Part shown: positions 49,098-64,000 of the stretch, in pieces
Layout: every line of letters starts with the position of its first letter
Position numbering within the stretch: position 1 is the stretch's first letter
Assembly: GCA_030949985.1 (NCBI GenBank)
Contig: JAUZRX010000010.1
Coordinates: 1 to 64,000, forward strand
Source of the DNA: Acidobacteriota bacterium
Lineage (GTDB): Bacteria > Acidobacteriota > Polarisedimenticolia > J045
DNA length: 64,000 nt
Direction: 5' to 3'
Notes under the pieces: model-generated
What the model was told of the DNA's origin: nothing
The model's input: the letters and a program-made list of their open reading frames with translations, nothing else
Databases searched by the model: none
Translations under genes and position numbers: made by a program

Positions 49098-50321
49098 TCA
49101 GGCCTCCTCGCCCGCGTAGGTTCTGTGGATCATGGGAATCGCCGCCTTGCACAGCAGGGTGAAGACCAGGAAACCCACGGCGAAGATCCCGGCCCCGACT
49201 CTCAGCTCCGTGATGGTCGGCGCGTACTCGTAGATCTCTCCGAGGGTGTCCGGCGTCATACCGGGAATGACCAGGGCCATGCCCTTCTCGATGTAGACGC
49301 CGGTGTAGATCAGCAAGCAGCCGATCACCAAGGTCACCTCGTTGCGCCGCGTCGAGGGCACGAGGAAGAGCAGGAACGCCACCACCGAGCAGAAAAGCGA
49401 GGCCCAGGCAAAGGGTACGAGCGTGGTGTGGTCGCCCAGGCCCGTGTAGAGGTAGCGGGTGTGCACCAGGTGCTCGGTGCGGGAATAGAACTCCTTGAAC
49501 AGCTCGGCTCCCGCCAGGAAGAGATTGATGAACATGGCGTAAGCCATCAGCTCGGCGATCTTCCAGATCGCCTCGTCCCGGATGTGGATCCGGGACACCC
49601 GCCGCAGAATCAGGAAAAGAATGATCAACACCGCCGGGCCCGAGCAGAAGGCCGAGGCGATGAATCGCGGAGCGAGAATCGAGGCGTTCCAGAACGGTCG
49701 TGCCGCCATTCCGTTGTAGACGAAGGCCGTGACGGTGTGAATACTGATCGCCGCCGGAATCGAAACCAGCAGCAGCGGGACCACGAAACGCTGATTGACC
49801 TCCTCCTTGTGAAACGCCTTGTAGAGCATGTAGCCGACGATCACCGCGTTGAGCAGCAGGTAGGCGTTGAGCACCAGCACGTCCCAGCCCAGCAGCGAGG
49901 ACGGCACGTTGAGCGTTCCGATGCCCGGAATCAGGTGCCAGAACCGCTCAGGACGACCAATGTCCACGGTCACGAAAAGCAGGCACATCACGATCGCGGA
50001 GATCGCCAGCAGCTCGCCGAAAATTGCGATCTCCTTGATCGGCTTCCAGTGGTAGACGTAGGCCGGAATGACCAGCAACACGGCGGCGGCGGCCACACCC
50101 ACGAGGAAGGTGAAGTTGCCGATGTAGAACGCCCAGGACACCTGGTCCCGCATGTGGGTCACGATCAGGCCCACGCGAAGCTGGTCCAGATAGGCCAGCA
50201 CACCACTGATCAGCAGCAGCCCCAGAAAGCCCAGCCACAGGTAGTAGGTGGTCCCACCCCTGAGGGACATCCGCAGGATGCCGAACATGAATTCCCAGAT
50301 CTTGCGCAACCTTTCCATCAC
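49098..50321 (-). CDS. NrfD/PsrC-family quinol-interacting membrane subunit
   Basis: This 407-residue protein has about ten transmembrane helices and is the quinone-binding partner of iron-sulfur proteins in many respiratory complexes (NrfD, PsrC, DsrP, QrcD). Typical elements are YLWLGFLGLLLISG, TVDIGRPERFWHLIP and GWDVLVLNAYLLL. It follows the ferredoxin-like gene by 36 bases. Together with it and the tetraheme cytochrome it makes a complete quinol-to-cytochrome path. No catalytic molybdopterin subunit is present. Confidence 0.9.
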   Translation of the reverse strand: MMERLRKIWEFMFGILRMSLRGGTTYYLWLGFLGLLLISGVLAYLDQLRVGLIVTHMRDQVSWAFYIGNFTFLVGVAAAAVLLVIPAYVYHWKPIKEIAIFGELLAISAIVMCLLFVTVDIGRPERFWHLIPGIGTLNVPSSLLGWDVLVLNAYLLLNAVIVGYMLYKAFHKEEVNQRFVVPLLLVSIPAAISIHTVTAFVYNGMAARPFWNASILAPRFIASAFCSGPAVLIILFLILRRVSRIHIRDEAIWKIAELMAYAMFINLFLAGAELFKEFYSRTEHLVHTRYLYTGLGDHTTLVPFAWASLFCSVVAFLLFLVPSTRRNEVTLVIGCLLIYTGVYIEKGMALVIPGMTPDTLGEIYEYAPTITELRVGAGIFAVGFLVFTLLCKAAIPMIHRTYAGEEA

Positions 50322-50357
50322 GGCTCCGTCCAGGCCGGCCCCGACACCGGGCAGGCG

Positions 50358-51269
50358 TCAAGTGGCATAGAAGTAATAGAACTTCGGCCGGGTGGCGAGT
50401 TCTTCCTTGAGCACGAAGACCCGCTTCTCGCGCATCAGGTAGCGGATCTCGCTCTCTTCGTCGAGCAGGTTGCCGAACTTTCGGGCGCCCACCGGGCAGA
50501 TCTCACAACAGGCGGGATAACGCCCCTCCCGTGTCCGCTGGATGCAAAAAGTGCACTTCTCCACGACCCCCCGCATACGCGGACGATTGCCGAGATAGTG
50601 CATGTCGGGATTGATCGCCTCGGCATCGATCTCGGGATCGGCCCAGTTGAAGTGCCGGGCGCCATAGGGACAGGCCGACATGCAGCAGCGGCAGCCGATG
50701 CACCAGTCGTAGTCGATGACAACGATACCGTCAGGCTCTTGCCAGGTGGCCCGGACCGGACAGGCCCGGGTGCAGGGCGAATTGCGGCACTGCTGACAGG
50801 CCACGGGAACGTAGAAGTAGTCTTCCTCGGGCACTTCCTCCGGGTTGTAGTAGGCGGTGGAGTGCACCAGGTCGATGCCCTCCTCCTTCTTCATTTGCAG
50901 TACCCGGATCCAGTGCACCTGGGGGTGTCGTGAGTTGTTGTTCTCCTTGACGCAAGCATAGACACAACGCCGGCAACCCACACAACGGGAAAGATCGAGG
51001 CCGTAACCGAAGACCACTCCTTCGAGGGCCTTGGTCGCCTTGACGTCCACTTCGCGGCCGTAGCGTTCCTCGCAGTCTCTCCGGACTTCGTCGAGGCGCC
51101 GCTGAACCTGCTGTGGAGTCAGTTCGACGAAACGGCGCGCCAGGAGCTTCTCGACGAAACCCGGCTTCGATCCCGCCACGGCGGCCGAAACCGCCGCCAT
51201 GCTGGTCAGTCCGGCGGCGGTGAGAAACGCCCGGCGGCTGGTCGGAGAAGTGCGATCGGATTCACTCAT
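50358..51269 (-). CDS. four-cluster ferredoxin subunit with Tat signal
   Basis: The 303-residue protein begins with a twin-arginine-type signal (SRRAFLTAAGL followed by a hydrophobic run), so it is exported folded. Four [4Fe-4S] clusters are bound by 16 cysteines in CVGCRRCVYAC, CQQCRNSPCTRACP, CIGCRCCMSACP and CTFCIQ...CCEICPVGA. It resembles DsrO, NrfC and HmcB. Its ATG at 51269 overlaps the end of the cytochrome gene by eight bases. It would pass electrons between NrfD and the periplasmic cytochrome. Confidence 0.92.
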   Translation of the reverse strand: MSESDRTSPTSRRAFLTAAGLTSMAAVSAAVAGSKPGFVEKLLARRFVELTPQQVQRRLDEVRRDCEERYGREVDVKATKALEGVVFGYGLDLSRCVGCRRCVYACVKENNNSRHPQVHWIRVLQMKKEEGIDLVHSTAYYNPEEVPEEDYFYVPVACQQCRNSPCTRACPVRATWQEPDGIVVIDYDWCIGCRCCMSACPYGARHFNWADPEIDAEAINPDMHYLGNRPRMRGVVEKCTFCIQRTREGRYPACCEICPVGARKFGNLLDEESEIRYLMREKRVFVLKEELATRPKFYYFYAT

Positions 51270-51960
51270 CGTGGGTGCTCCCCTCGGCGGACCGCCCCAA
51301 ATCCGAAGCGAGATAGGAGGGATGGATCGGCGGCGGCAACGGCTTGATCGGCGCGGGCCGCGGCGAGTGCGGGTTGTGACAGTGGGCACAGAGCAGGTAG
51401 CTCTTGGCGCCGTTCCAATACCCCCTGCGACGACCATGAATGCCCTGTTTCCAGTCCCGGAAGATCGTGCCGTGACACTGCCCGCAGAGTTCGTAGGATT
51501 CCTCGAAAGTCACGGTGCGGCCGGAGCTCAACCGCAGCACGTCCCGCTGCTCGGGATTGTGGCAATCGAAGCACCAGCGATCCCGGGGACCGTGGTTGAG
51601 CTGGATCTCCTCGTGAAAGCCGAGTTCGCGTCGCGTCGCATCGTAGTCCCCCTCCTCGTGACAACTCGAGCAGGGGAAGATGTCGGGATCCGAAAACGGC
51701 GGCGGCGGCAGGGTGTAGGGCGCGCTGGACTCCCCGGTCAACCCCGGCAGCGGCTCGAAATCGAAGTCGACACCGGTGACGTCCTCGGGGCCGTAGGCCC
51801 GATCGGGCATCATCTGGGAATGCCCCGGTACGTCTTCGCTGGCGACGATGGATATCAGGCTGATCAGGGCGATGCCCGCAAAAAAGACCAGCAGCACCAC
51901 CAGCGACGAACTTTCCGGTAAACGGAGCTGGGGCTCGGACTCAGGGGGTGATCGATCCAC
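51262..51960 (-). CDS. membrane-anchored tetraheme cytochrome c
   Basis: The 232-residue protein has one N-terminal membrane helix (VVLLVFFAGIALISLISIV) and four CxxCH heme sites: CSSCH, CFDCH, CGQCH and CAHCH. Extra histidines (GFHEE, NHGPRD, IHGRRR) can serve as distal ligands. It starts with GTG at 51960, seven bases after AGGAGG. It is the first gene of a four-gene operon. It may receive electrons from or give them to an unseen periplasmic partner. A true DsrJ has three hemes and is shorter. Confidence 0.9.
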   Translation of the reverse strand: MDRSPPESEPQLRLPESSSLVVLLVFFAGIALISLISIVASEDVPGHSQMMPDRAYGPEDVTGVDFDFEPLPGLTGESSAPYTLPPPPFSDPDIFPCSSCHEEGDYDATRRELGFHEEIQLNHGPRDRWCFDCHNPEQRDVLRLSSGRTVTFEESYELCGQCHGTIFRDWKQGIHGRRRGYWNGAKSYLLCAHCHNPHSPRPAPIKPLPPPIHPSYLASDLGRSAEGSTHDE

Positions 51961-52130: not shown

Positions 52131-53615
52131 TTAGAGACTAAGCCCGGAGAGCAGCGCCAGAAGGGTGGGCACCCCCGCACCGGTCCCGCCCTCTCCCCAG
52201 AACGGATCCTGCTTTTCCAGGAAGGCCGGGCCGGCGATGTCCAGATGCAACCAAGGCGTCTGCCCGACGAACTGTTCGAGGAACAAGGCGGCCGTAATCG
52301 ACCCACCCCAGCGGCTGCCGGTGTTGCGACAGTCGGCGATCGGCGACCGGAGCTGCTCGAAATAGTCCCCGATCATGGGCAGCGGCCACATCAGCTCACC
52401 GGCCCGCTGCGCGGCGGCGAGGAGCTGTTTGCGAAGATCCTCGTCGCGGCCGAACACCGCCGAGCAGTGTTCTCCCAAAGCCACGACACAGGCCCCCGTC
52501 AAGGTCGCCAGGTCGATCATCAGGTCGGGCTTGATCGTGGTGCCGGCGTAATCGAGGATGTCGGCCAGCACCAGCCGGCCCTCGGCGTCCGTGTTGTTGA
52601 TCTCGACCGTCTTGCCCGAGCGGGTGCGCAAAACATCCCCCGGTTTGTACGCCTTGCCCGACACCAGGTTCTCGACCAGGCCGACGACACCGTGGACTTC
52701 CACCGGCAGATTCAACCGGGAAGCCGCATGGATCGCGCCGATCACGGCCGCCGATCCGGCCATGTCGCATTTCATGGTCTCGATGTGACCCGTGGTCTTG
52801 ATGTTGTACCCCCCGGAATCGAAGGTCACACCCTTGCCCACCAGCGCGACCTTCTTCCGGGGCCGGGCCGGGCGCCAGACCAGGTGCACCACCCTGGGCG
52901 GCACCTCGCTGCCGACGGCCACCTGCAACAGCGCCCCCATCGACAGCTTTTCGATCTGAGCGCGTCCGAAGACCCTCACCTGAACCTTCTTCGAGCGGAA
53001 GTGTTGGCGAATCCGGCCCGCGTAGGTCACCGGATCCAGGGTGCCGGCCGGCTCGTTGACCAGGTCGCGGGCCAGCGCCACGCCTTCACCGAGAGCCACG
53101 GCGGCCGCCAGGGTCTTCTTCGCCGCTGCCGCGTGCCTCCCGGCGGCGACGATCACGCGCCGTGCCGGCGGCGCGTTGTCGGGCTTGCTGCGGTAGCGGT
53201 CGAAAGTGTAGCTGCCGAGCAACAAGCCCTCGAACAAGGCCCGGCAGCGCTCCCCGACGTCGCGCAGCCTGCCGCCGGGCCCGGGAAGGCCGACTCCCAC
53301 CGACCGGGCCTTGCACGCGCGGGCGGCCCGGACCGCCGCCGCCGCGGCACGATGCAGGCGCCGCGTATCGAGTTCGTCCTTCGCGCCGAGTCCGGCAACG
53401 ATCAGCAGGCGGCGACCCGACGCGATATCGATCTCCACCGCCGCCGTCTTGCCACTGCCCGCCGAAAAACCGCGCCGGGCGAGAGACTCTTCGAGCTGCC
53501 GACCGGCCTTGCCCGACAAGAGTTTGCGCGCGGCCTGGCCCTCGAAAAGAAAAAGCAGATCGACGTCGGTCTGCAGGTCGAACCATTCCCGCGGCGACAC
53601 CTGTACTTTCGTCAT
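52131..53615 (-). CDS. pepA: leucyl aminopeptidase (M17)
   Basis: This is a cytoplasmic di-metal aminopeptidase of 494 residues. The N-terminal half is the less conserved domain; the catalytic half has VGKGVTFDSGGYNIKTTGHI (metal lysine and aspartate), KCDMAGSAAV, and the signature NTDAEGRLVLADIL with the catalytic acids. The start at 53615 (MTKVQVSPREW) is favoured; an upstream ATG at 53645 is less likely. It removes N-terminal residues from peptides in protein turnover. Confidence 0.95.
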   Translation of the reverse strand: MTKVQVSPREWFDLQTDVDLLFLFEGQAARKLLSGKAGRQLEESLARRGFSAGSGKTAAVEIDIASGRRLLIVAGLGAKDELDTRRLHRAAAAAVRAARACKARSVGVGLPGPGGRLRDVGERCRALFEGLLLGSYTFDRYRSKPDNAPPARRVIVAAGRHAAAAKKTLAAAVALGEGVALARDLVNEPAGTLDPVTYAGRIRQHFRSKKVQVRVFGRAQIEKLSMGALLQVAVGSEVPPRVVHLVWRPARPRKKVALVGKGVTFDSGGYNIKTTGHIETMKCDMAGSAAVIGAIHAASRLNLPVEVHGVVGLVENLVSGKAYKPGDVLRTRSGKTVEINNTDAEGRLVLADILDYAGTTIKPDLMIDLATLTGACVVALGEHCSAVFGRDEDLRKQLLAAAQRAGELMWPLPMIGDYFEQLRSPIADCRNTGSRWGGSITAALFLEQFVGQTPWLHLDIAGPAFLEKQDPFWGEGGTGAGVPTLLALLSGLSL

Positions 53616-53682
53616 CCTCCGTACTCCCTCCCGTTTTCCAGGCACCCCAGCGTCAGCCTGGGCTCGTGATCCGCAACCCCCC

Positions 53683-55665
53683 TCAGTGATCCCACTCCAG
53701 CCGGCGGGTCACGGCATCGAGCACGGAAGCCTCGTCGATCCCCGCTTCCGCGAGCAGGCGCGGACGGGATCCGTGCCCGATGAATCGATCGGGGATCGCT
53801 CGCGGCAGCAGTTTGCCGGCAAGCCCCAAGCCATGTTCCACGTCAGCCTCGAGCAAAGCCGAGGTGAACCCGCCACGAATCGTATTCTCTTCCAGCGAGA
53901 CGACGACCCGCGCCGCTCCCACGTATCGGCGCAGCATGTCCACGTCGAGCGGCTTGATGAAGCGGGCGTTGAGCACGGTGGCACCGACGCCTCGCTCGAC
54001 CAGGGTGCGGGCGACGCCCTGGGCGATGGGCACCAGGCTGCCCACCGCGGCGAAGACCACCTCGCCACCCGTTTCCTCGAGCACCTCCCAGCTTCCGAGG
54101 GGCAGCACACGTGGGGCCCGGCGCCGGGGCCCCGGCGCCGCTCCCCGCGGATAGCGCAGCGCGAAGGGGCGCTCGTTCTGGGCGAGAGCCGTTTCGAGCA
54201 TGTCCGCGAGTTCGTCGCCATCACGGGGCGCGGCCACCACCAGTGACGGCACCAGGCGAAGATAGGACAGGTCGAAGGCTCCGTGATGGGTCGGTCCGTC
54301 CGCCCCCACCAGCCCGGCCCGATCGAGGGCGAAGACCACGGGAAGGCCCTGGAGGGCCACGTCGTGGATCATGTGATCGAAGGCCCGCTGGAGGAAGGTG
54401 GAATAGATCGCACAGACCGGCCGCAGCCCCTGGCTCGCCAGGCCGGCGGCGAAAGTCACCCCGTGGCCCTCGGCGATGCCCACGTCGAAGTAGCGCTCCG
54501 GATAGGCCTGGCCGAAGCGGTCGAGGCCGGTACCGGTAGGCATCGCCGCGGTGATGGCGACCACGTCCTCCCGCCGGCCGGCGAGATCGACCAGGGCCTC
54601 GGCGAAAATGCTGGTGTAACTCGGCGGCGAAGCCTCGGGAGGCGGCGGCGCCGTCACGGCCGCAGCCTTGGGCTTGTCCCCGGTGGCCGGATCGAAGGGA
54701 CTGACCCCGTGCCACTTGCAGGGGTCCGCCTCGGCAGGCGCGTAACCCTTGCCCTTGTGGGTCAGGGCATGGAGCAACACGGGCCCGAGATGGGATTCCC
54801 GAATCCGGCGCAGCACATCGACCAGTTCTTCCAAGTCGTGGCCGTCGATGGGCCCCAGGTAGGTGAAGCCCAGGGCCTGGAACAGCGCCCCCGGCACGAG
54901 CGCGCCCTTGAGACCCTGCTCGAGACGACGGGCGAACTCGCCGGCGGCCGGTCCGACCCGTGGGATCTTCTGCAACACCGAGTGGATCTCGCCCTTCATC
55001 CGCCGGTAGTAAGGATGGGTCGTCAGCGAGGTCAGATAGTGGGCCACCGCGCCGACATTGGGCGAGATGGACATGGCGTTGTCGTTGAGGACGATCAGCA
55101 GGTTGCTGCCCAGGGCGCCCGCGTTGTTCAGGGCTTCGAAGGCCAGCCCGCCGGTCATCGCGCCGTCGCCGATCACCGCGGCCACGTGGCGGTCGGTCTC
55201 ACCCCGCAGATCCCGCGCCGCCGCCATGCCCAGCGCCGCCGAGGGCGCCGTCGAAGCGTGCCCGGCGCCAAAGGAATCGTACTCGCTCTCGCTGCGCTTG
55301 AGGAAGCCCGACAGGCCGTCGTCCTGGCGAATGGTGTGCAACCGCGCCCGCCGGCCGGTCAGCAACTTGTGGGCGTAGGCCTGGTGTCCCACGTCCCAGA
55401 CGATCAGGTCCCGGGGCGTCTGGTAGACGTAATGCAGGGCCAGGGTGAGTTCCACGACCCCCAGGCTGGGCGCGAAGTGGCCCCCCTTCTCGGAGGCCAC
55501 CTGAACCAGGAACGAGCGAATCTGGCGGGCCAGCTCTTCGAGATCGCGGATCTCGAGGCCGCGCAGGTCGGCCGGCGTGTCGATCTGATCGAGACGCACA
55601 CCGGCCGCCGGATTCCCCTCGGCTTCGGGGCGCGCTTTCATGCCGTCATCGAGGACGTGCTCCAT
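53683..55665 (-). CDS. dxs: 1-deoxy-D-xylulose-5-phosphate synthase
   Basis: DXS makes the first intermediate of the MEP isoprenoid pathway from pyruvate and glyceraldehyde-3-phosphate. The 660-residue enzyme has the thiamine-diphosphate motif in VIGDGAMTGGLAFEALNNAG, the N-terminal HFAPSLGVVELT and WDVGHQAYAHKLLTGR, and the catalytic region DVGIAEGHGVTFAAGLA. ATG at 55665 follows GAGGGG by eight bases. It lies 46 bases behind the NuoI-like gene. Confidence 0.97.
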   Translation of the reverse strand: MEHVLDDGMKARPEAEGNPAAGVRLDQIDTPADLRGLEIRDLEELARQIRSFLVQVASEKGGHFAPSLGVVELTLALHYVYQTPRDLIVWDVGHQAYAHKLLTGRRARLHTIRQDDGLSGFLKRSESEYDSFGAGHASTAPSAALGMAAARDLRGETDRHVAAVIGDGAMTGGLAFEALNNAGALGSNLLIVLNDNAMSISPNVGAVAHYLTSLTTHPYYRRMKGEIHSVLQKIPRVGPAAGEFARRLEQGLKGALVPGALFQALGFTYLGPIDGHDLEELVDVLRRIRESHLGPVLLHALTHKGKGYAPAEADPCKWHGVSPFDPATGDKPKAAAVTAPPPPEASPPSYTSIFAEALVDLAGRREDVVAITAAMPTGTGLDRFGQAYPERYFDVGIAEGHGVTFAAGLASQGLRPVCAIYSTFLQRAFDHMIHDVALQGLPVVFALDRAGLVGADGPTHHGAFDLSYLRLVPSLVVAAPRDGDELADMLETALAQNERPFALRYPRGAAPGPRRRAPRVLPLGSWEVLEETGGEVVFAAVGSLVPIAQGVARTLVERGVGATVLNARFIKPLDVDMLRRYVGAARVVVSLEENTIRGGFTSALLEADVEHGLGLAGKLLPRAIPDRFIGHGSRPRLLAEAGIDEASVLDAVTRRLEWDH

Positions 55666-55711
55666 CTCGTCTGCCCCTCGTGGAGAAAAGACCGGAAGCG
55701 GGAAGGCGGGC

Positions 55712-56206
55712 TTACTTCGAGGCCCACTTGCGAATACCACCGGCTCGAACACCGCCGAGTTCGAGCAGCTTCTCCTTGGGCAGAACAGCCTCCTCGCGGG
55801 AAGCCACGACGAAAGTCGCCACGTCGCTCATGAAGATCGCCTCTTCCGGACAGGCCTCTTCACACAGGCCGCAATAGATGCAGCGCAGCATGTTCAGATC
55901 GAAGCGGTCGGGGTATTTTTCGACGTTGCTGTCGGGATACTCCCCGGGCACGATCTTGATCGCCTCGGGCGGGCAGACGAATTCGCACAGTTGGCAGGCC
56001 ACACACTTGAGGCGGCCGTCCTCGTCCTTGACCAGCGCGGGAATGCCCCGGTAGCCGTCGGGCAGGGGAGTCGGCACCTCCGGGTACTGGCGGGTGACGT
56101 TGTGCCGGGGATCGAGTGCGTGCCGGATGGTGGTGCCCATCCCTCGCAGCACCTCGGGAAGGTACATCTTTTCCAACAAGTTGAGTTCTTTGCGGGCTAC
56201 CTTCAC
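55712..56206 (-). CDS. NuoI-like two-cluster ferredoxin, orphan
   Basis: This 164-residue protein has the complex I NuoI layout: an N-terminal helix then GYRGIPALV and two CxxCxxCxxxCP motifs (CVACQLCEFVCP and CIYCGLCEEACP). YPDRFDLNMLRCIYC is very close to NuoI. No other complex I genes are in the window, so either the complex is dispersed or this copy serves another partner. The C-terminal part (EEAVLPKEKLLELGGVRAGG) is an extension typical of organisms with split nuo operons. Confidence 0.85.
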   Translation of the reverse strand: MKVARKELNLLEKMYLPEVLRGMGTTIRHALDPRHNVTRQYPEVPTPLPDGYRGIPALVKDEDGRLKCVACQLCEFVCPPEAIKIVPGEYPDSNVEKYPDRFDLNMLRCIYCGLCEEACPEEAIFMSDVATFVVASREEAVLPKEKLLELGGVRAGGIRKWASK

Positions 56207-56270
56207 GCCTCTTCTCCCGTGGGCCCCAGCGGGCCGGTCCTCTTGCAGGTCCTCGAGGGGAAGGCCGATT

Positions 56271-56855
56271 CTAGGCGCTGGCTCCGGGCCGCGTCAATCC
56301 TGGCCCCGCCTCCGGCAGCCCTCCCCAGGCGGCCAAAACCTGTTCCACCTTACCCCTAAGTTGCTCCAGGCTGCCATCGTTGGAGATCAGCGTGTCCGCT
56401 TCGGCCAGTGCCCGCCGAACCTGCTGGGCCGTGGGAGAGGCGGTGTTCTCGAGAGCCTCCTGGCGGCGGAAGCTCTCCAGGTCGGCGGCATCCCCCGCCC
56501 GGCCCCGCTCCATCGCCCGCTTCCAGCGCAGTTCCACGGGGGCGTCGATACCCAGCAGGCGAAAATCCTCCCGTCGCCGCAGGACGGCGATTTCGGCGGG
56601 CGAACGGATGGAATCGACCACGCCGCGCCGCCCGAGACGGGGAAGGATCCTCTCGGCCAGGACGCCGGGCCCCTCGGCGGCGCGAAGTTCCTGCCCGACG
56701 GCGATCAGGTGCTCGCGCTCAGGCGGCAGCCCCCGCCGGGCCGCCTCTTCGCGGACCACGTCGGAGAGGGAGACGACGGGAAAGCCGAGGCGGGCGAGAT
56801 GCGCCGCCGCCTCACCCTTCCCGGAGGCGTTGGGACCGACCAGGCCGATGATCAA
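56271..56855 (-). CDS. UPF0200-like P-loop nucleotide kinase
   Basis: The 194-residue protein starts LIIGLVGPNASGKGEAAAHL, a P loop ending SGKGE rather than the GKT/S of bacterial CoaE. FPVVSLSDVVREEAARRGLP, VVDSIRSPAEIAVLRRR and TLISNDGSLEQLRGKVE match the archaeal UPF0200 group better than dephospho-CoA kinase. The TTG start at 56855 sits one base after the stop of the upstream gene. Such proteins are annotated as AAA-type ATPases or kinases without a proven substrate. A CoA-kinase role cannot be ruled out. Confidence 0.65.
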   Translation of the reverse strand: MIIGLVGPNASGKGEAAAHLARLGFPVVSLSDVVREEAARRGLPPEREHLIAVGQELRAAEGPGVLAERILPRLGRRGVVDSIRSPAEIAVLRRREDFRLLGIDAPVELRWKRAMERGRAGDAADLESFRRQEALENTASPTAQQVRRALAEADTLISNDGSLEQLRGKVEQVLAAWGGLPEAGPGLTRPGASA

Positions 56856-56856
56856 C

Positions 56857-57495
56857 TCAGAACTTTCCGTTGTTGGTGACCGTCTTGTTCTTGCCGCGCG
56901 GGAGCCGCGGAGCGAGCCGGGGAACGATGCCCGGCTCCTTGACGGGGGACCGGGTCCGTCGCGTCCCCACGGCAGGCAAGGTGCCCGCACCACCGGAGGG
57001 AGTTCCACCGCCGGCACTGGCGACGGTGCGCCGCGCCTCGGGAGCGAGGACGCTCAGCGGCTGGGGGCGCGCGGAGGCGTCCTCGTTGGCCCCCCAGCCG
57101 GAGCCCCGGAAGGAGAAACCCACCGAGTTGAGTTCGCGCCCCTTCACCTTACGCGCCACGCCGGAGAGCCCCGCGGAGAGGTGACCGGCACGAACCTGGC
57201 TGCGGCGGTAGGCCATGGTTTCCCGGGCCGAGGGGCCGCGACCTCCGAAGCCGTTGGTGGGGCGGGCGTAGCGCTGGAACTCCCCCTCCTCCTGGACGGC
57301 CACCAGGGCCTTGGGAAATCCCACCTCGCTGCCGTCTTCCAGGGTCAGGTAGATGAAATCGCCTTCGACACGGGAGGAGAGCACCACGATCGTGTGGCCG
57401 TTCTTGAAGCGGATCCGCTCGGTCGCAGCCGCCCAGGGCAGGGACACGGCCCCGGCCAGAACGAGGGCGGCCATCACCTTCCAGCTTCTCTTCAT
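56857..57495 (-). CDS. exported protein of unknown function, SH3-like N-terminus
   Basis: The 212-residue protein has a signal peptide (MKRSWKVMAALVLAGAVSLP...AAA). Then comes a small beta-rich segment, RIRFKNGHTIVVLSSRVEGD and FIYLTLEDGSEVGFPKALV, as in SH3-like extracytoplasmic domains. The remaining 120 residues are low-complexity and arginine/proline/serine-rich, probably disordered. It lies directly before the UPF0200 gene. I do not recognise it. Confidence 0.6.
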   Translation of the reverse strand: MKRSWKVMAALVLAGAVSLPWAAATERIRFKNGHTIVVLSSRVEGDFIYLTLEDGSEVGFPKALVAVQEEGEFQRYARPTNGFGGRGPSARETMAYRRSQVRAGHLSAGLSGVARKVKGRELNSVGFSFRGSGWGANEDASARPQPLSVLAPEARRTVASAGGGTPSGGAGTLPAVGTRRTRSPVKEPGIVPRLAPRLPRGKNKTVTNNGKF

Positions 57496-57655
57496 GGCAG
57501 TTCTCCACCGGGTGGGCCGCCGGGCACAGCCCGCAACCCTCCCCATTTCTTACCGCGGAACGCGGGCCCGCGCCACGGGCAATGGCCCCGGGGGCGGGCT
57601 CCGGCCCCCGATGTTACCCTGCACGTGCTGTCCATCATGCCATGGGAGGTTCCCG

Positions 57656-58111
57656 ATGAAGAGCTGGCTGCTGGTCCTGGGTCTGGTTGTTGCGGTGTGC
57701 GCCCCGCAGGCGGCGCCCGGCTCCCGCAAGAAGACCGCTCCCACCATGGGCATCCGCGTCGAACAGCGGCCCGCCGCCGCCACGGTGGGCGAGCCGGCCA
57801 CGGTGCAGGTGCATGTCACCCCTCCCGACGGGATCCGCCTCAATCGTTACCCCGGCATCACACTCGAGATCGACAAGGCCGACGCCCTGGATCTCTCGAC
57901 CCGGAAGGCCTTCGTGGGCAGCACCAAGCCGATCAACGATGTGAGCAAGTTCGGCTTCGAGACCATCGACCCGCTGGTGCTCGAATTCGTCCCCAAGGCC
58001 CCGGGAGAGCACGTGCTGGAAGGCACCTTGAAGTACTTCTACTGCGTGAAGAAAAGCGGCTACTGCGCCCCGGGGCAGCAGCGGGTGCGGCTGCCGGTCA
58101 AGGCCCGCTGA
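57656..58111 (+). CDS. exported DsbD-alpha-like domain protein
   Basis: The 151-residue protein has an N-terminal signal peptide (MKSWLLVLGLVVAVCAPQAA). The C-terminal part KYFYCVKKSGYCAPGQQRVRLPV closely matches the DsbD N-terminal domain pattern (C-x5-GYC/GFC-x-P ... V-x-LPV), so the two cysteines may form a redox pair in the periplasm. The middle is immunoglobulin-like. GGGAGG lies six bases before the ATG. It has no membrane or thioredoxin partner in the window. Its end overlaps the convergent kinase gene by 14 bases. Confidence 0.65.
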   Translation: MKSWLLVLGLVVAVCAPQAAPGSRKKTAPTMGIRVEQRPAAATVGEPATVQVHVTPPDGIRLNRYPGITLEIDKADALDLSTRKAFVGSTKPINDVSKFGFETIDPLVLEFVPKAPGEHVLEGTLKYFYCVKKSGYCAPGQQRVRLPVKAR

Positions 58112-59135
58112 CCCGCAGCCCCGTCCGCCGCAGGCCCACCGGCGCGGGCCGGCCTCCCGCCCGCCGGACGGCCTCGGCCACCGGCTCCCGCCGGGAGGGC
58201 TCCACCAGCAGCACCAGGTAACCGCCCCCCCCGGCCCCGCAAACCTTCTCCCCCCAGGATCCCGCCCGGCGCGCCGCGGCGACGATCGCCTCCAGCCGGG
58301 GGGTGTAGACCTGCCCGGACCAGCTTCGCCGCGCCGCGGCGTCGGCCCGCATGGCCCGCCCCAGGGCCCGCCAATCGCCCCGAACCAGCGCCTCGGCGGC
58401 TCTGCGGGCGGCCCGGGCCACCCGCTCGAGGGCCCGCCGGGCGGGTCCTTCCCCGTCGAGGCGACGACGGATCATGTCCCAGTTGGAGGGCGCCGACGAA
58501 CGCCCGCAGCCTCCATCCACCAGCAGGAGGTGACGGGCCAGCCGGTCCACGACCCGGGGCTCCACGCGGTGCAGCCGCGACCCTCCCGGCCGATGTTCGA
58601 GGACGATCACCCCGCCATGGAGGGCCGCCAGGTGATCCTGGACGCCGGTGGGAATGCCCAGCACCTGGGCCTCCACGTCGGCCACCAGGCGCACCAGTTC
58701 CCGGCGCGGCCCCCGCCGGCCGGCCAGGGCCGTCAGGGCGGCGGCCGCCGCCAGCCCCAGGGCCGAGGAGGTGCCCAGCCCGGAGCCGGCCGCCACCGGC
58801 GAACAGGTCTCGAGGTGAACGCCGCCGGGACTCAGATCCCGCGCCAGGCGCTCGAGCAGCTCGAGGGGCCCCCGGCGGAGAGGAGGCCAGGGCCGGGTCA
58901 ACCGCCTTCGGCGGCCCAGGTCCAGGGATCTCAGTTCCAGCTCGCCGGCCCGGCGCGGCGAACGGGCCCGCGCCTCCACCACCAGGTCGAGGGTCACCGC
59001 CACCGTCAGGGCCGGCGGGTGCAGCAGGCCCATCGGCCAGATGTCGAGGGTGCCGCCGGCCAGGTCCGCCCGCAGACCGGCTCGGGCGACGAAACCCGCG
59101 GCCCGCGGGCGCGGGGATGGACGGCGGGCGCTCAC
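58098..59135 (-). CDS. GHMP-family sugar kinase
   Basis: This 345-residue kinase has the three GHMP motifs: ARAGLRADLAGGTLDIWP near the N-terminus (substrate site, as in heptose kinases), the ATP loop PVAAGSGLGTSSALGL, and the C-terminal GEKVCGAGGGGYLVLLV. It resembles D-glycero-D-manno-heptose-7-phosphate kinase-type proteins, but the substrate is not certain. The GTG start overlaps the stop of the DUF3524 gene, so they are made together. It is convergent with, and overlaps, the DsbD-like gene. Confidence 0.8.
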   Translation of the reverse strand: MSARRPSPRPRAAGFVARAGLRADLAGGTLDIWPMGLLHPPALTVAVTLDLVVEARARSPRRAGELELRSLDLGRRRRLTRPWPPLRRGPLELLERLARDLSPGGVHLETCSPVAAGSGLGTSSALGLAAAAALTALAGRRGPRRELVRLVADVEAQVLGIPTGVQDHLAALHGGVIVLEHRPGGSRLHRVEPRVVDRLARHLLLVDGGCGRSSAPSNWDMIRRRLDGEGPARRALERVARAARRAAEALVRGDWRALGRAMRADAAARRSWSGQVYTPRLEAIVAAARRAGSWGEKVCGAGGGGYLVLLVEPSRREPVAEAVRRAGGRPAPVGLRRTGLRVSGP

Positions 59136-60247
59136 GACGCCTCCTGTCCGACCCAGCGGTCGAGGGCGGCTGCCCGGCGGGCCCAGTCGTGGCGGCGGGC
59201 GCAGAGCATCACCCGGCGCCTCAGCCCGGCGAAGAGGGCGGGCCGGGCCAGCCAGCGACCGAGGCGGGCCGCCAGCTCCCGGTCGGTCCCATAGAGCAGG
59301 GCGTCGCGCAGGGAGGGGGTCAACAACTCGGGGTAGGACAGCCGGCGGGGAAAGAGGGGCACGGCTCCGGCGGCCATGGCCTCCACCGCCGCGTAGCCGA
59401 AGTTCTCCTGCCCGGCGGTGGAAACAGCGATGTCCGCCCGGCCCAGCCAAGCGGCGTACTCCCGCCGGGAGCGGGCGGGCCCGTCACGCAAGATGCGATC
59501 GCCGAGCCTCTCGCGGATCAGCGCGAGGGCGGCGATCTCGACCTGAACCACGGGCCCCAACAGGACCAGCCGGAAATCGAGCCCCTTGTCGGCCAGGCGC
59601 AACAGGACGCGGGCGAAGGCCCCGGGGCGCTTGTCGCCGTCCCAGCGGTGGTTCCAGGCGATCACCGGCGGGCTGCCCACCGGCCGTGACGCGGGAGCGG
59701 GAAAGACGCCGAGGTCCACCCCCGGCGGCAGGATACGCGAGGCCCGCAGGCGTCGGAGCAGGCCGCGGGGGCGGGGGGGCGGGATCTGCTCGAGGTAATC
59801 GCGGGTGGCCGCCAGCGCGGCGTCCCGGTGGGAACGGGAGTTCCAGGCCAGGGCGTCGGCGGCCAGCCAGGAAGCCAGGTGGGCCCCGGCGAAGGAGCGG
59901 TCGAGAGGCTCACCGGGGGGACGGGGGTAGGTCAACTGGTTTTCGTGCATGTAGAGCAGGAAGGCGGGTGGTCGGCGGCGGCGGTCGAGGCCCGACAGGG
60001 CCCGCAGGTGGGCCAGGTCCACCAGGCTGGTGGCCACCACCGCCCGGGGGGGTGGATCGAGAGCCCCCAGGCGTGGAGCGAGGGCCAGCGCCCCTGCACG
60101 CAGGCGCCACTTCCAGCGCTCGGCGGGCAGGCCCAGGCGCCGCCAGCGGTGGCGGCTGCGGGCCAGCCAGCCCTCGGCGAAGGCCTCGTGGGAGCCGCCC
60201 GCGAAGCTCTCCACGAAGACCGCGTCGATGGACCGCGTGACGCTCAC
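59132..60247 (-). CDS. DUF3524 glycosyltransferase (queuosine mannosyltransferase-like)
   Basis: The 371-residue protein has the DUF3524/GTDC1 signatures: FVESFAGGSHEAFAEGWLAR, KWKWRLRAGALALA, YMHENQLTYPRPPGEPLDRS and LAADALAWNSRSHRDAAL, then a GT-B C-terminal domain with IAWNHRWDGDKRP and the nucleotide-sugar site STAGQENFGYAAVEAMAAG. The animal member mannosylates queuosine in tRNA(Asp). The bacterial role is less clear and might be similar. It starts with GTG overlapping the M16 stop, and precedes the kinase. Confidence 0.82.
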   Translation of the reverse strand: MSVTRSIDAVFVESFAGGSHEAFAEGWLARSRHRWRRLGLPAERWKWRLRAGALALAPRLGALDPPPRAVVATSLVDLAHLRALSGLDRRRRPPAFLLYMHENQLTYPRPPGEPLDRSFAGAHLASWLAADALAWNSRSHRDAALAATRDYLEQIPPPRPRGLLRRLRASRILPPGVDLGVFPAPASRPVGSPPVIAWNHRWDGDKRPGAFARVLLRLADKGLDFRLVLLGPVVQVEIAALALIRERLGDRILRDGPARSRREYAAWLGRADIAVSTAGQENFGYAAVEAMAAGAVPLFPRRLSYPELLTPSLRDALLYGTDRELAARLGRWLARPALFAGLRRRVMLCARRHDWARRAAALDRWVGQEAS

Positions 60248-62988
60248 GGGGCGACGACGAAAAGCATCCGGTCCGGGTCGAGGTACTTCCTCGCCGCGGC
60301 GCGCACCTGCTCGGCACCAACGGCGGCGAAGTCGGCACCCGCCACGTCGAGGGTCGAGCTGGGGCCTTCGAAAAGCCGCCGGCCCAGGCGGTAGGCCCGG
60401 GAAGCGGCGGACAGCCCCCGCAGCATCGCCGACAAGCGCCGGCGGGCGGCCAGCCGCTCGAGCCGCTCGGGGTCGACGAGCCCGGTGCGCAGTTCGGCGA
60501 TCAACTCGTCGAGCAGGGCGCGCACCTGCTCCTGGTTCTCCGGCCGGGTACCCACCGACGCACTGAGCAGCCAGCCGCCACCGGGAACCACCCGCACCCC
60601 GGCGCCCAGGCGGTAGGCCAGCCCCAGTTCCTCGCGAATCCGGGCCACCATCCGGTCGGACAGGGCGTCGAGGGCGGTGAGCAGGGCAGCCCGGTCGGCG
60701 GGCTCCACGTCGGCCAGCCGCGCCGCGATCACGCTGACCTGGGGAGCGTCACCGGGTTCGATGATCTCCCCGCCCCCATGGGCCCTGGGAGTGGGATAGG
60801 GGCCGCGCACGGGTTCGGCATCGGCGCCGCCGGAGAAATAGTCGCGTACCATGGCCAGGGTCTCACCGGCCGGCACCGGGGAGGCCACGGTGAGCACCAG
60901 GTGCCGGGGAGCGAAGTAACCTCCGGGCCAGCGGCCCCAGAAGGCGCGCAGATCCTCGGCGGTGGGCACGGGGTCGTCAGGTCGTCCCGCCAGGGGCCGC
61001 GCGAGGGGGTGGTCCGCACCGAAGAGGGCGGCGCGCAGGCGGGCCACCGCACCGCCGCCGCCCCGGGCCTCCGACTTGCGGGCGGCGCGCAGTCCCTGGA
61101 GGGCACTCGACCAGCCCGCCGCATCCCACGAGGGTTCGCGAATCATTTCCGCCAGCACGGCGAGCCCTTCCTCGAGAGAGGCGGCGGGTCCCTCCAGACG
61201 CACGTAGGAGAAGTCGGGCACGTTATAGCGATTGTCGAAGGGGATCATCGGGTTGTCGGCGGTCTTGACGTCGATGCCCGCGCGCTCGAGGCGGTGGGCG
61301 AGTTCCTTGGAGCCGGCCAGCAAGGTCCCGCCATCCAGCAGGCGATGGAGCAGATCGGTGGTGCCCGGGGGCACGTTCTTCTCACGGAACCCCCGGTCGG
61401 CCACCAGCAGGTGGATGCCGAAGACGTCGTTGCCCGTCTCGGGCAGGATGCCCACTTCGAGGCCGTTGGGCAGAACGGTGACCCGGCTGCCGAGGGGACC
61501 TTCCGCCAGTTCGGCCGCGGCCCGGGGGGGCGGCGGGGCCAGCGGAGCCGGCAGAGGCCCGGCCTCGGCGGGACCGCCCTCCCCGACCCAGGCCGCCCGG
61601 GCGCGGTGGGGCAGATCGGCCAGCAGGGCACCCACGGCAGCGCGCACCTGGGCCGGCGTCACCGGAGGCGGGTCGAGGGCCGCGGCCAGGGAGCCGGCGG
61701 CGGAAGCCAGGTCGGCGCCGTAGAAGACCGCGGCATAGTGCAGGCGCTGCCCGGTCAGCGCGCGTTCGGCGGCCCAGGCCCGTTGAAGACGCATCACGTC
61801 GACGTCTTCGGGCCCGGAAGCCGCGGCCTCGAGGGCACCGAGGAGGCGGGCGAGCAGATCGGCGGGATCGACCCCTTTCCTGGCCCGCAGGTCGATGTCC
61901 ACCAGGTCACGGGGCCGGCCCGGCTGACGGCCGCAAGCGACGGACTCGGCCAGATCGGGAACCAGCACCGAGGCCAGCGGGCCATCGTCGGCCCCAAGCC
62001 AGCGGGTGGCGATCTCGAGGGCGGAGGGACCGACCGGATCGGGAGGCGGAGCGAGCAGGCTCAGGGTCAGGCGGCCGCCTTCCTCCATGGCCGGCGGAGG
62101 GCCGCCACCGTGGCCCATGGGACCGCCCTCCCCCGGGGCTCCGGTGGCGCCCTCCGGCTTGGGCCGGGCCTGCCACTGGCCCCAGCCGGGCCAACTCGCG
62201 GGGTCGGTACGGGCCGGCGGCGCGGGGGCCGCGGCCAGCGCTTCGAAACGCCGGGCCAGGGCTTCGAGTTCGCCACGGGGCAGATCGCCGCTGACCAGCA
62301 CGCGCATGGCGGCCGGGACGTAGTGCTGCTTCCAGTAGGCCAGCACCTCGTCCCGGGGTGTGGAGGTCACCGACTCGGGGTAGCCCGCGACGGGATGCTC
62401 GAGGGGGGTACCCTGCCAGAGGGCTTGCCGCAGGGTCTCTTCCACGAGGGTGGAGGGGCGGGAGTGGTCCTTGGCCAGTTCCTCGAGGATGACCTTCTTT
62501 TCCTTCTCGTAGACCTCCGGACGCAAGGTGGAGCGGGTCAGCATGCCCACGAGCAGGCCTGCGGCCCGGGCGGCGTTTTCCCGGGGCACGAGCACGAAGA
62601 AGACGGTGGTCTGCTCCCGCGTGAAGGCGTTGACGTAGGCCGAAATCCTTTCGAAGGACTCGGTGACGCCGCGCTCGTCGAGATCGTCGAAACCATCGAA
62701 GAGCAGGTGCTCGAGGTAGTGAGACGAACCCTCGCGACCCGGGGCCTCGTCCTGGGAACCGGCGGCCACCGCCACGGCGACCAGCACGGTCCCCGAACCA
62801 GGCTTGGGCCAGACCACGGCCCGGGCGCCGTTGTCGAAGACCAGGTCCCGGGGACCGCCGGTGGCGGCCGCGGCAGCCGCCGGCAGGGCCAGCAGGAGAA
62901 GCATGAGGGAGACGAGCGGCACGAGGCCGACCCGCGTGGAGGCCGCGGATCGACGCACCCGGGCGGAGACGATGGATGGATTGATCAT
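60244..62988 (-). CDS. M16-family zinc metalloprotease, two-domain
   Basis: This 914-residue exported protease (signal peptide residues 20-43) is a pitrilysin-like fusion of two M16 domains. The first has the inverted zinc motif HYLEH (H90, E93, H94, in GSSHYLEHLLFDGF), with the third ligand among the glutamates of KKVILEELAKD. The second domain (residues 480-914) lacks the HxxEH motif and is the structural partner. It is likely periplasmic and degrades peptides. It heads the operon with the DUF3524 enzyme and the kinase, but need not share their pathway. Confidence 0.88.
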   Translation of the reverse strand: MINPSIVSARVRRSAASTRVGLVPLVSLMLLLLALPAAAAAATGGPRDLVFDNGARAVVWPKPGSGTVLVAVAVAAGSQDEAPGREGSSHYLEHLLFDGFDDLDERGVTESFERISAYVNAFTREQTTVFFVLVPRENAARAAGLLVGMLTRSTLRPEVYEKEKKVILEELAKDHSRPSTLVEETLRQALWQGTPLEHPVAGYPESVTSTPRDEVLAYWKQHYVPAAMRVLVSGDLPRGELEALARRFEALAAAPAPPARTDPASWPGWGQWQARPKPEGATGAPGEGGPMGHGGGPPPAMEEGGRLTLSLLAPPPDPVGPSALEIATRWLGADDGPLASVLVPDLAESVACGRQPGRPRDLVDIDLRARKGVDPADLLARLLGALEAAASGPEDVDVMRLQRAWAAERALTGQRLHYAAVFYGADLASAAGSLAAALDPPPVTPAQVRAAVGALLADLPHRARAAWVGEGGPAEAGPLPAPLAPPPPRAAAELAEGPLGSRVTVLPNGLEVGILPETGNDVFGIHLLVADRGFREKNVPPGTTDLLHRLLDGGTLLAGSKELAHRLERAGIDVKTADNPMIPFDNRYNVPDFSYVRLEGPAASLEEGLAVLAEMIREPSWDAAGWSSALQGLRAARKSEARGGGGAVARLRAALFGADHPLARPLAGRPDDPVPTAEDLRAFWGRWPGGYFAPRHLVLTVASPVPAGETLAMVRDYFSGGADAEPVRGPYPTPRAHGGGEIIEPGDAPQVSVIAARLADVEPADRAALLTALDALSDRMVARIREELGLAYRLGAGVRVVPGGGWLLSASVGTRPENQEQVRALLDELIAELRTGLVDPERLERLAARRRLSAMLRGLSAASRAYRLGRRLFEGPSSTLDVAGADFAAVGAEQVRAAARKYLDPDRMLFVVAP

Positions 62989-63068: not shown

Positions 63069-63611
63069 TCAGGGGTGCCGGGGAGGGCCCGAGTCGTCCG
63101 CGGCGGGGGACGCCGGAGAGGCGGCGCGAACGCGAAAGGTCTCGATCATGCCCGCCAGCCACTCCGGGGGGGCGTCGCCGTGGCAGATGGCGGGCAGACT
63201 GACGAGGCGCGGGGGTTCACCGGTGAGAACCAGCACCACCCGGCGCCGACCGGTGACGCGCTCGACGCCGACCCGCGCGATCCGTTCCCAGCCGAGCCGC
63301 CAGGCCTCGCCCAGCCCATCGTCGACGGTCAGGCCCTCGTCGTCGAGCACCAGCGGCGGACGGCCGGCGGCGGCGCGCCGGTACTCCAGCAGCGCCGCCA
63401 GCCCGAAAAGGCTGGCCCCCGCGATGCCGAGCCCCACACCCGGCACCGAATCGGCCAACGCCGCCCGGGCACCGGCCCAGCACAGCACGAGCGCCGCGAC
63501 CAGGGCCGCGAGAGCCTTGAAGCGGTGCATGCCCGCCTGGCAGGGGGTTTCGAAATGCAGGGCCGGCGCCCTGGAGGCCGCGGATCCCGCCGCATGAGGA
63601 AGGGTGGACAT
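63069..63611 (-). CDS. membrane protein with PH-like C-terminal domain
   Basis: The 180-residue protein has two membrane helices (about 28-50 and 54-75) followed by a beta-rich domain of about 70 residues, LVLDDEGLTVDDGLGEAWRL, WERIARVGVERVTGRRRVVL, LVSLPAI, in the style of bacterial PH/EbsA-like domains. The start at 63611 (MSTLPHAAG) is favoured over the arginine/proline-rich extension upstream. No function is known to me. Confidence 0.55.
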   Translation of the reverse strand: MSTLPHAAGSAASRAPALHFETPCQAGMHRFKALAALVAALVLCWAGARAALADSVPGVGLGIAGASLFGLAALLEYRRAAAGRPPLVLDDEGLTVDDGLGEAWRLGWERIARVGVERVTGRRRVVLVLTGEPPRLVSLPAICHGDAPPEWLAGMIETFRVRAASPASPAADDSGPPRHP

Positions 63612-63720
63612 GGGGCGAATATAGGCTTCGCCGGGCGCTTCGCACACCGTCGACCGCCGGATCCGCGGAGGGCATGCTGCACGTGCGGGAGCAAGCGGGA
63701 CCGCAGGGCGGCGACGTTCC

Positions 63721-64000
63721 TCAGCGTCGACGTTCACGGAAGCGGTGGACCCCGCCGTCGGTCGCCCGCACCCGCCCCTGCAGGTAGGCCCCCTCCGCCA
63801 CCGCCACCCGCGGGCCGAGGATGTTGCCCCGCACCCGTCCGGAATGCCGCAACTCGCAATGTTCGGTAGCCGTGATGTCGCCGTCGACCGCGCCTTCGAT
63901 CAACACCGCGCCGCCCTCGATGGGGCCATTGACCACCGCCCCGGCCAGCACGTGCACCATCGCCGGTGTGCGAACCGAGCCATCCACGCGCCCCCCGATG
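63721..64000 (-). CDS. bactofilin, C-terminal part (runs off the window)
   Basis: The frame is open to the window edge and shows a right-handed beta-helix pattern with hexapeptide-like turns: VLAGAVVNGPIEGGAVLIEGAV, DGDITATEHCEL, RHSGRVRGNILGPRVAVAEGAYLQGRV, as in bactofilins (DUF583), which polymerise at the membrane and shape cells. The real start lies beyond base 64000; an ATG at 63987 is inside the fold. The last ten residues are basic. Confidence 0.75.
   Translation of the reverse strand, partial: IGGRVDGSVRTPAMVHVLAGAVVNGPIEGGAVLIEGAVDGDITATEHCELRHSGRVRGNILGPRVAVAEGAYLQGRVRATDGGVHRFRERRR

Follow-up and report, generated by a model that had tools for sequence, protein, structure and literature searches.

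A QTMAN-family glycosyltransferase gene chained to M16 peptidase and GHMP sugar kinase genes in an Acidobacteriota bacterium

The animal enzyme QTMAN, a tRNA-Asp queuosine alpha-mannosyltransferase that we take to be the same protein as GTDC1, has the GT-B layout. Glycosylated forms of queuosine are known from animals, but what they are for is unsettled (PMC12518689). The window treated here, that is, the whole 64,000-nucleotide stretch analysed (positions 1 to 64,000 of contig JAUZRX010000010.1), encodes a QTMAN-family GT-B (GT4-type) glycosyltransferase that shares the QTMAN_N domain and the GT-B layout with the animal enzyme, but differs from it in its bacterial host with its own queuosine synthesis, in its divergent sequence and in having an activity that is so far a prediction. 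PimA, PimB' and the methylmannose polysaccharide mannosyltransferase resemble it in fold, and PimA also in sequence profile over the C-terminal part, whereas the QTMAN_N domain, an HENQ motif and a presumed RNA acceptor set the window's enzyme apart from all three. The sugar kinase encoded next to it has the GHMP fold of the WcbL/HddA D-glycero-D-manno-heptose-7-phosphate kinases, but is unlike them in its invariant D24 and W33, its SNWDM motif and its position near dxs and leucyl aminopeptidase genes.

Three genes, namely those for an M16 peptidase (62988-60244), the QTMAN-family enzyme (60247-59132) and the GHMP kinase (59135-58098), are chained on the minus strand of the window. A four-base GTGA overlap joins the stop codon of QTMAN to the start of the kinase gene (59135..58098), and the same overlap is found between the M16 stop (60246-60244) and the QTMAN start (60247). 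The features of the region are as follows.

52131..53645, minus strand: leucyl aminopeptidase (NF002073, 455.8 bits, cut-off 432), in the kinase's class-wide neighbourhood
53683..55752, minus strand: dxs (TIGR00204, 761.8 bits, cut-off 465.95), in the same class-wide neighbourhood
56271..57017, minus strand: AAA_17 nucleotide-kinase-like protein (Pfam), likewise in that neighbourhood
57353..58111, plus strand: convergent gene after the kinase, no family match, start uncertain; beside the kinase in many class loci (tblastn)
58098..59135, minus strand: GHMP sugar kinase of 345 aa whose GTG start codon overlaps the stop of QTMAN (Pfam, alignment, WcbL fold)
59132..60247, minus strand: QTMAN-family (PF12038) GT4-type glycosyltransferase of 371 aa whose GTG start codon overlaps the stop of M16 (Pfam, alignment, model)
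60244..62988, minus strand: M16 peptidase of 914 aa, at the upstream end of the chain (Pfam PF05193 and PF00675)
63069..63737, minus strand: small protein with a weak STM3941-family match (NCBIfam, 33.9 bits, cut-off 40)

Both chained proteins are conserved in same-family relatives (57–61% for full-length QTMANs of the same type and 54–61% for the kinases), so neither open-reading frame is due to chance. A kinase start at TTG 59450, which would give the longest frame, is unlikely; relatives align from near GTG 59135. The sequence-only reading had placed a DUF3524 enzyme overlapping a GHMP sugar kinase at 58098-60247, and the Pfam matches and the GTGA overlap confirm this arrangement, with the outer coordinates right. 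Around the chain, the GHMP kinase, the convergent gene, AAA_17, dxs and leucyl aminopeptidase (window 52131-59135) recur together across the class, the kinase often lying near dxs. The small STM3941-like protein (63069-63737) lies less than 3 kb from QTMAN in genomes of the window's family, f1 (tblastn; L029-L032, L175 and L176), and adjoins the f1-type QTMAN even in G003 and G349, whose contigs yielded no M16. At 49098-51960 of the window, minus strand, genes for an NrfD-like membrane protein, a 4Fe-4S protein and a CXXCH-type cytochrome stand in a row and resemble a quinone-cytochrome oxidoreductase module.

The glycosyltransferase matched QTMAN_N (PF12038, of which DUF3524 is presumably the former name) with 131.5 bits and Glyco_trans_1_2 with 28.7 bits, the Pfam cut-off being 25 in both cases. 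In an alignment of 24 QTMAN rows, one of which is the window's, S19, H20, W45, W47, R48, HENQ (101-104), W198, R201, W202, E289, Y305 and P306 are invariant, and the window's protein keeps every one of them. It also has K206 and E281, which are conserved at 90% or more, but at certain other positions of 90% conservation it deviates, with S in place of P14 and D in place of E203. Paired glutamates and an Arg/Lys have roles in the GT4-type C-terminal domain, and the window's enzyme has such a domain as judged from the Pfam match, from R201, K206, E281 and E289, and from the fold. Its predicted structure (pLDDT 91.9) is a GT-B fold, and the solved structures closest to it belong to retaining GT-B enzymes, with the methylmannose polysaccharide mannosyltransferase in the top VIA row (Z 30.1, rmsd 2.7 Å, 327 aligned) and many others close behind. 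PimB' with GDP-Man scores Z 26.9 and PimA Z 23.9. The best PDB match of the sequence profile was the GDP-Man-dependent PimA (3.7e-10, C-terminal part), and no entry named QTMAN occurred among the solved-structure matches listed. This fold is common to many GT4 enzymes with other donors and acceptors.

In the sample of the window's phylum, PF12038 was found in 26 of 297 genomes. A low-scoring form of QTMAN is found in f1 (106–136 bits in G000, G003, G185, G071 and G215, the last two cut by contig ends), and the remaining carriers of the phylum score 167–209 bits, including G223, which belongs to the window's own family. Five f1-type QTMANs form one clade (support 100, stem length 1.17 changes per site) in a 131-row tree, from which seven of 138 reads shorter than 300 aa, some of them cut by ORF calling or a contig end, had been dropped. 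Because of this long stem and the departures at 90% positions, the donor or acceptor may have changed in the window's clade.

The kinase matched GHMP_kinases_N (52.4 bits) and GHMP_kinases_C (47.8 bits) of Pfam, and its fold is closest to that of the heptokinase WcbL (Z 40.7, rmsd 2.1 Å, 331 aligned). It scored 68.6 bits against the NCBIfam HddA equivalog, for which the cut-off is 600, and its substrate-side signature, R-x-DLAGGT-x-D-x-WP, differs from RLGLAGGGSDVSP in 3k85. D24 and W33 are invariant and an SNWDM motif is present in an alignment of 22 kinases of the class. In short, it is a WcbL/HddA-like sugar kinase in fold that lies far below the curated HddA cut-off, and the earlier description of the gene as heptose-kinase-like is borne out by the fold but not by the equivalog score.

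The window's genome carries tgt (3.1e-141), queA (1.9e-102) and queG (9.8e-87), with queA and tgt adjacent, and is thus expected to make full queuosine. Among the QTMAN-bearing genomes of the window's phylum, tgt was found in 24 of 26 (missed in G185 and G069, and at only 6.6e-7 in G140), queA in 27 of 29 (missed in G295 and G172, while G350, G090 and G185 gave no more than fragments that fall short of the cut-off) and queG in 24 of 29 with scores exceeding the cut-off (missed in G017, G044, G057, G156 and G172). The tgt miss in G185 is explained by the start of contig C314, which cuts queA, since at the six further loci that allowed both genes to be read tgt directly follows queA. Background frequencies in the phylum are 288/297 for tgt and 237/297 for queG, and neither gene is enriched with QTMAN there (Fisher p 0.18 for tgt, slightly rarer in carriers, and p 1.0 for queG), so that co-occurrence in this phylum says nothing, the queuosine genes being nearly universal. 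queH was found in none of the 26 carriers and in 39 of the 297 genomes (p 0.03).

A search of 41 genomes of the class found the kinase in 35 at E ≤ 1e-10, a number that falls to 32 at E ≤ 1e-40, as against 14 of 41 for QTMAN, and 20 of the 32 strong-kinase genomes are without QTMAN. QTMAN was absent from all 14 kinase loci fetched from outside f1, where AAA_17 was found in 12, dxs in nine, an aminopeptidase in nine and M16 in three. In G247 and G223 of the window's family (loci L159 and L174), the M16 and kinase genes share the four-base GTGA overlap with nothing between them. Conversely, tblastn with three kinases gave no match at any of 131 other QTMAN loci, which span 3.4–19 kb and several of which end near QTMAN. 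The f1-type QTMAN adjoins the kinase in all six readable genomes (G000, G003, G185, G349, G350 and G295, the last with only the end of QTMAN on the contig), co-directionally in five and divergently in G185. Contigs end inside QTMAN in G071 and G215, which hence give no adjacency reading; elsewhere in these genomes the kinase was not found in G071 and matched weakly in G215 (1.2e-18). Neither gene was found in G231, which belongs to the window's genus. Kinases of f1 are 51–59% like the window's when QTMAN is their neighbour and 54–56% when it is not. The QTMAN-kinase pair is thus restricted to a single divergent clade within the window's family and is not retained across QTMAN-bearing lineages, although its presence in all six readable genomes of the clade makes selection for adjacency possible there. 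The sequence-only reading had called for a look at the queuosine genes and at the conservation of the pair: tgt, queA and queG are all present, and the pair is kept within the window's clade but not outside it. The two findings that it had named as contrary to itself hence come out differently, a lack of queuosine synthesis not being observed and non-conservation of the pair holding only outside the clade.

Elsewhere the immediate neighbours of QTMAN are mixed, and among the matches listed group-1 glycosyltransferases account for 2 of 75 scanned neighbours in one set and 2 of 68 in another; such loci are unlike a glycan cluster. These scans covered 69 of 107 and 143 of 167 references (with long sequences in the second set trimmed to 500 aa), and the neighbour families listed are the best 25 of 51, 106 and 102 in three scans. 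No neighbour conserved across phyla appeared among the matches listed. The largest neighbour cluster (14 loci) looks like generic paralogues: its distances and strands are mixed, and its single scanned member proved to be a sensor histidine kinase. Krumholzibacteriota-type loci (L094, L104, L112, L116, L123, L124, L126 and L130) share genes beside QTMAN, and in L094 and L104 a HAD-like hydrolase gene begins at or just inside the QTMAN stop.

The explanation that we favour, and to which we give an even chance as a whole, is that the window's QTMAN glycosylates queuosine tRNA and was inserted into an M16-kinase operon whose kinase is independent of it; the donor, acceptor, activity and insertion are the parts that we infer. 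The predicted enzyme would move a hexose, probably mannose from GDP-mannose, most likely onto the cyclopentenediol of queuosine, at position 34 of a tRNA with a GUN anticodon, and for queuosine tRNA as the acceptor we consider the chances roughly balanced. A fast-evolving QTMAN copy would have come, within the family, between the M16 peptidase gene and the class-wide GHMP kinase gene, and in the window's genome it has four-base overlaps on both sides. Gain of QTMAN in the family followed by its loss in G247 and G223 would fit equally well, and under either history the kinase would not depend on QTMAN. The WcbL/HddA-like kinase would have a substrate of its own and would not specifically serve the glycosyltransferase; as judged from gene distribution, it is very probably independent of QTMAN. 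We read the overlap of the two genes as a probable feature of local operon layout rather than as a sign of a new pathway.

The sequence-only reading had instead made the kinase the source of a phosphorylated sugar for the glycosyltransferase. In such a route the kinase would yield a sugar-1-phosphate and then a nucleotide sugar for QTMAN, for example GDP-heptose for heptosyl-queuosine, in the window's clade. The WcbL-like fold of the kinase, the constant and mostly co-directional adjacency in f1-type genomes and the coherence of the divergent f1-type clade all speak for it, but the kinase is far more frequent in the class than QTMAN and most strong-kinase genomes do without the glycosyltransferase, the same overlap with M16 exists in its absence, the two genes are divergent in G185, no kinase was found at the 131 other QTMAN loci, the HddA score lies far below the cut-off and the signature differs from that of 3k85. 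The supply route is hence unsupported, and we consider it very improbable; that the window-family QTMAN uses a kinase-derived nucleotide sugar such as GDP-heptose and so makes a new glycosylated queuosine, for example heptosyl-queuosine, seems less probable still.

Another alternative concerns the acceptor: bacterial QTMANs may glycosylate something other than queuosine tRNA (a lipid, an envelope glycan or a small molecule), the animal activity being a later specialisation. Evidence on this came from the phylum that includes the Dehalococcoidia genome G313 (source of locus L089), which was chosen because queuosine is patchy there, with PF12038 in 31 and queA in 189 of 301 genomes. queA was found in 10 of the 31 QTMAN carriers as against 179 of 270 non-carriers, that is, it is absent in 21/31 versus 91/270 (Fisher p 3e-4, uncorrected for kinship), so the QTMAN family overall is not tied to de novo queuosine synthesis. 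Two of the 10 queA-positive carriers, G561 and G629, are doubtful members with a branch length of 4.3. Four of the queA-less carriers (G471, G487, G519 and G591) are single-contig genomes of 4.7–5.8 Mb, in which an assembly gap does not explain the absence. Twenty of the 21 queA-less QTMANs were placed in the tree (that of G567 was too short), and 18 of them (L203-L206, L208, L209, L211-L216 and L223-L228) form one clade with support of 97. Enoyl-CoA hydratases recur near queA-less QTMANs (9 of 69 neighbours, among the matches listed, which are the best 25 of 51 families). These carriers either salvage queuine or use another acceptor. A non-queuosine acceptor would agree with the queA-less clade and with a fold so widely shared among GT4 enzymes, but against it stand the presence of tgt in 48 of 50 named QTMAN genomes (out of 80 named carriers, 50 were taken into the scan), neighbours that are not glycan clusters and the high frequency of queA in carriers of the window's phylum, where, however, queuosine is nearly universal; we regard it as somewhat unlikely. 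In the queA-less genomes, QTMAN could also, as in animals, act on queuosine for which the cell takes up queuine or queuosine from outside. All six named Chloroflexota carriers tested have tgt, but in five of these it has the motif GGLAVGE or GGLSVGE, which may mark a preQ1-type pocket. We assume Sphaerobacter thermophilus, too, to be a member of the Chloroflexota. Its DUF2419/Qng1, an enzyme of queuosine-monophosphate salvage, has been studied structurally (PMC11592518). None of the six tested carriers falls in the 18-member queA-less clade, and salvage of this kind seems to us improbable.

The QTMAN family is widespread in bacteria; a single scan confirmed at least 589 relatives. Among the matches listed in a literature search, none was recognized by title or abstract start as concerning a bacterial QTMAN, and the term 'DUF3524' was not found in the literature searched. 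Glycosylation of tRNA by bacterial QTMANs, as predicted here, is plausible. Since the carriers include named strains such as Desulfosarcina alkanivorans PL12, Desulfatibacillum alkenivorans DSM 16219, Geomonas paludis and Balneola sp., the first of which has both tgt and queA (L198), bacterial manQ would be directly testable, and the queA-less clade would tell whether the QTMAN family can act without de novo queuosine synthesis.
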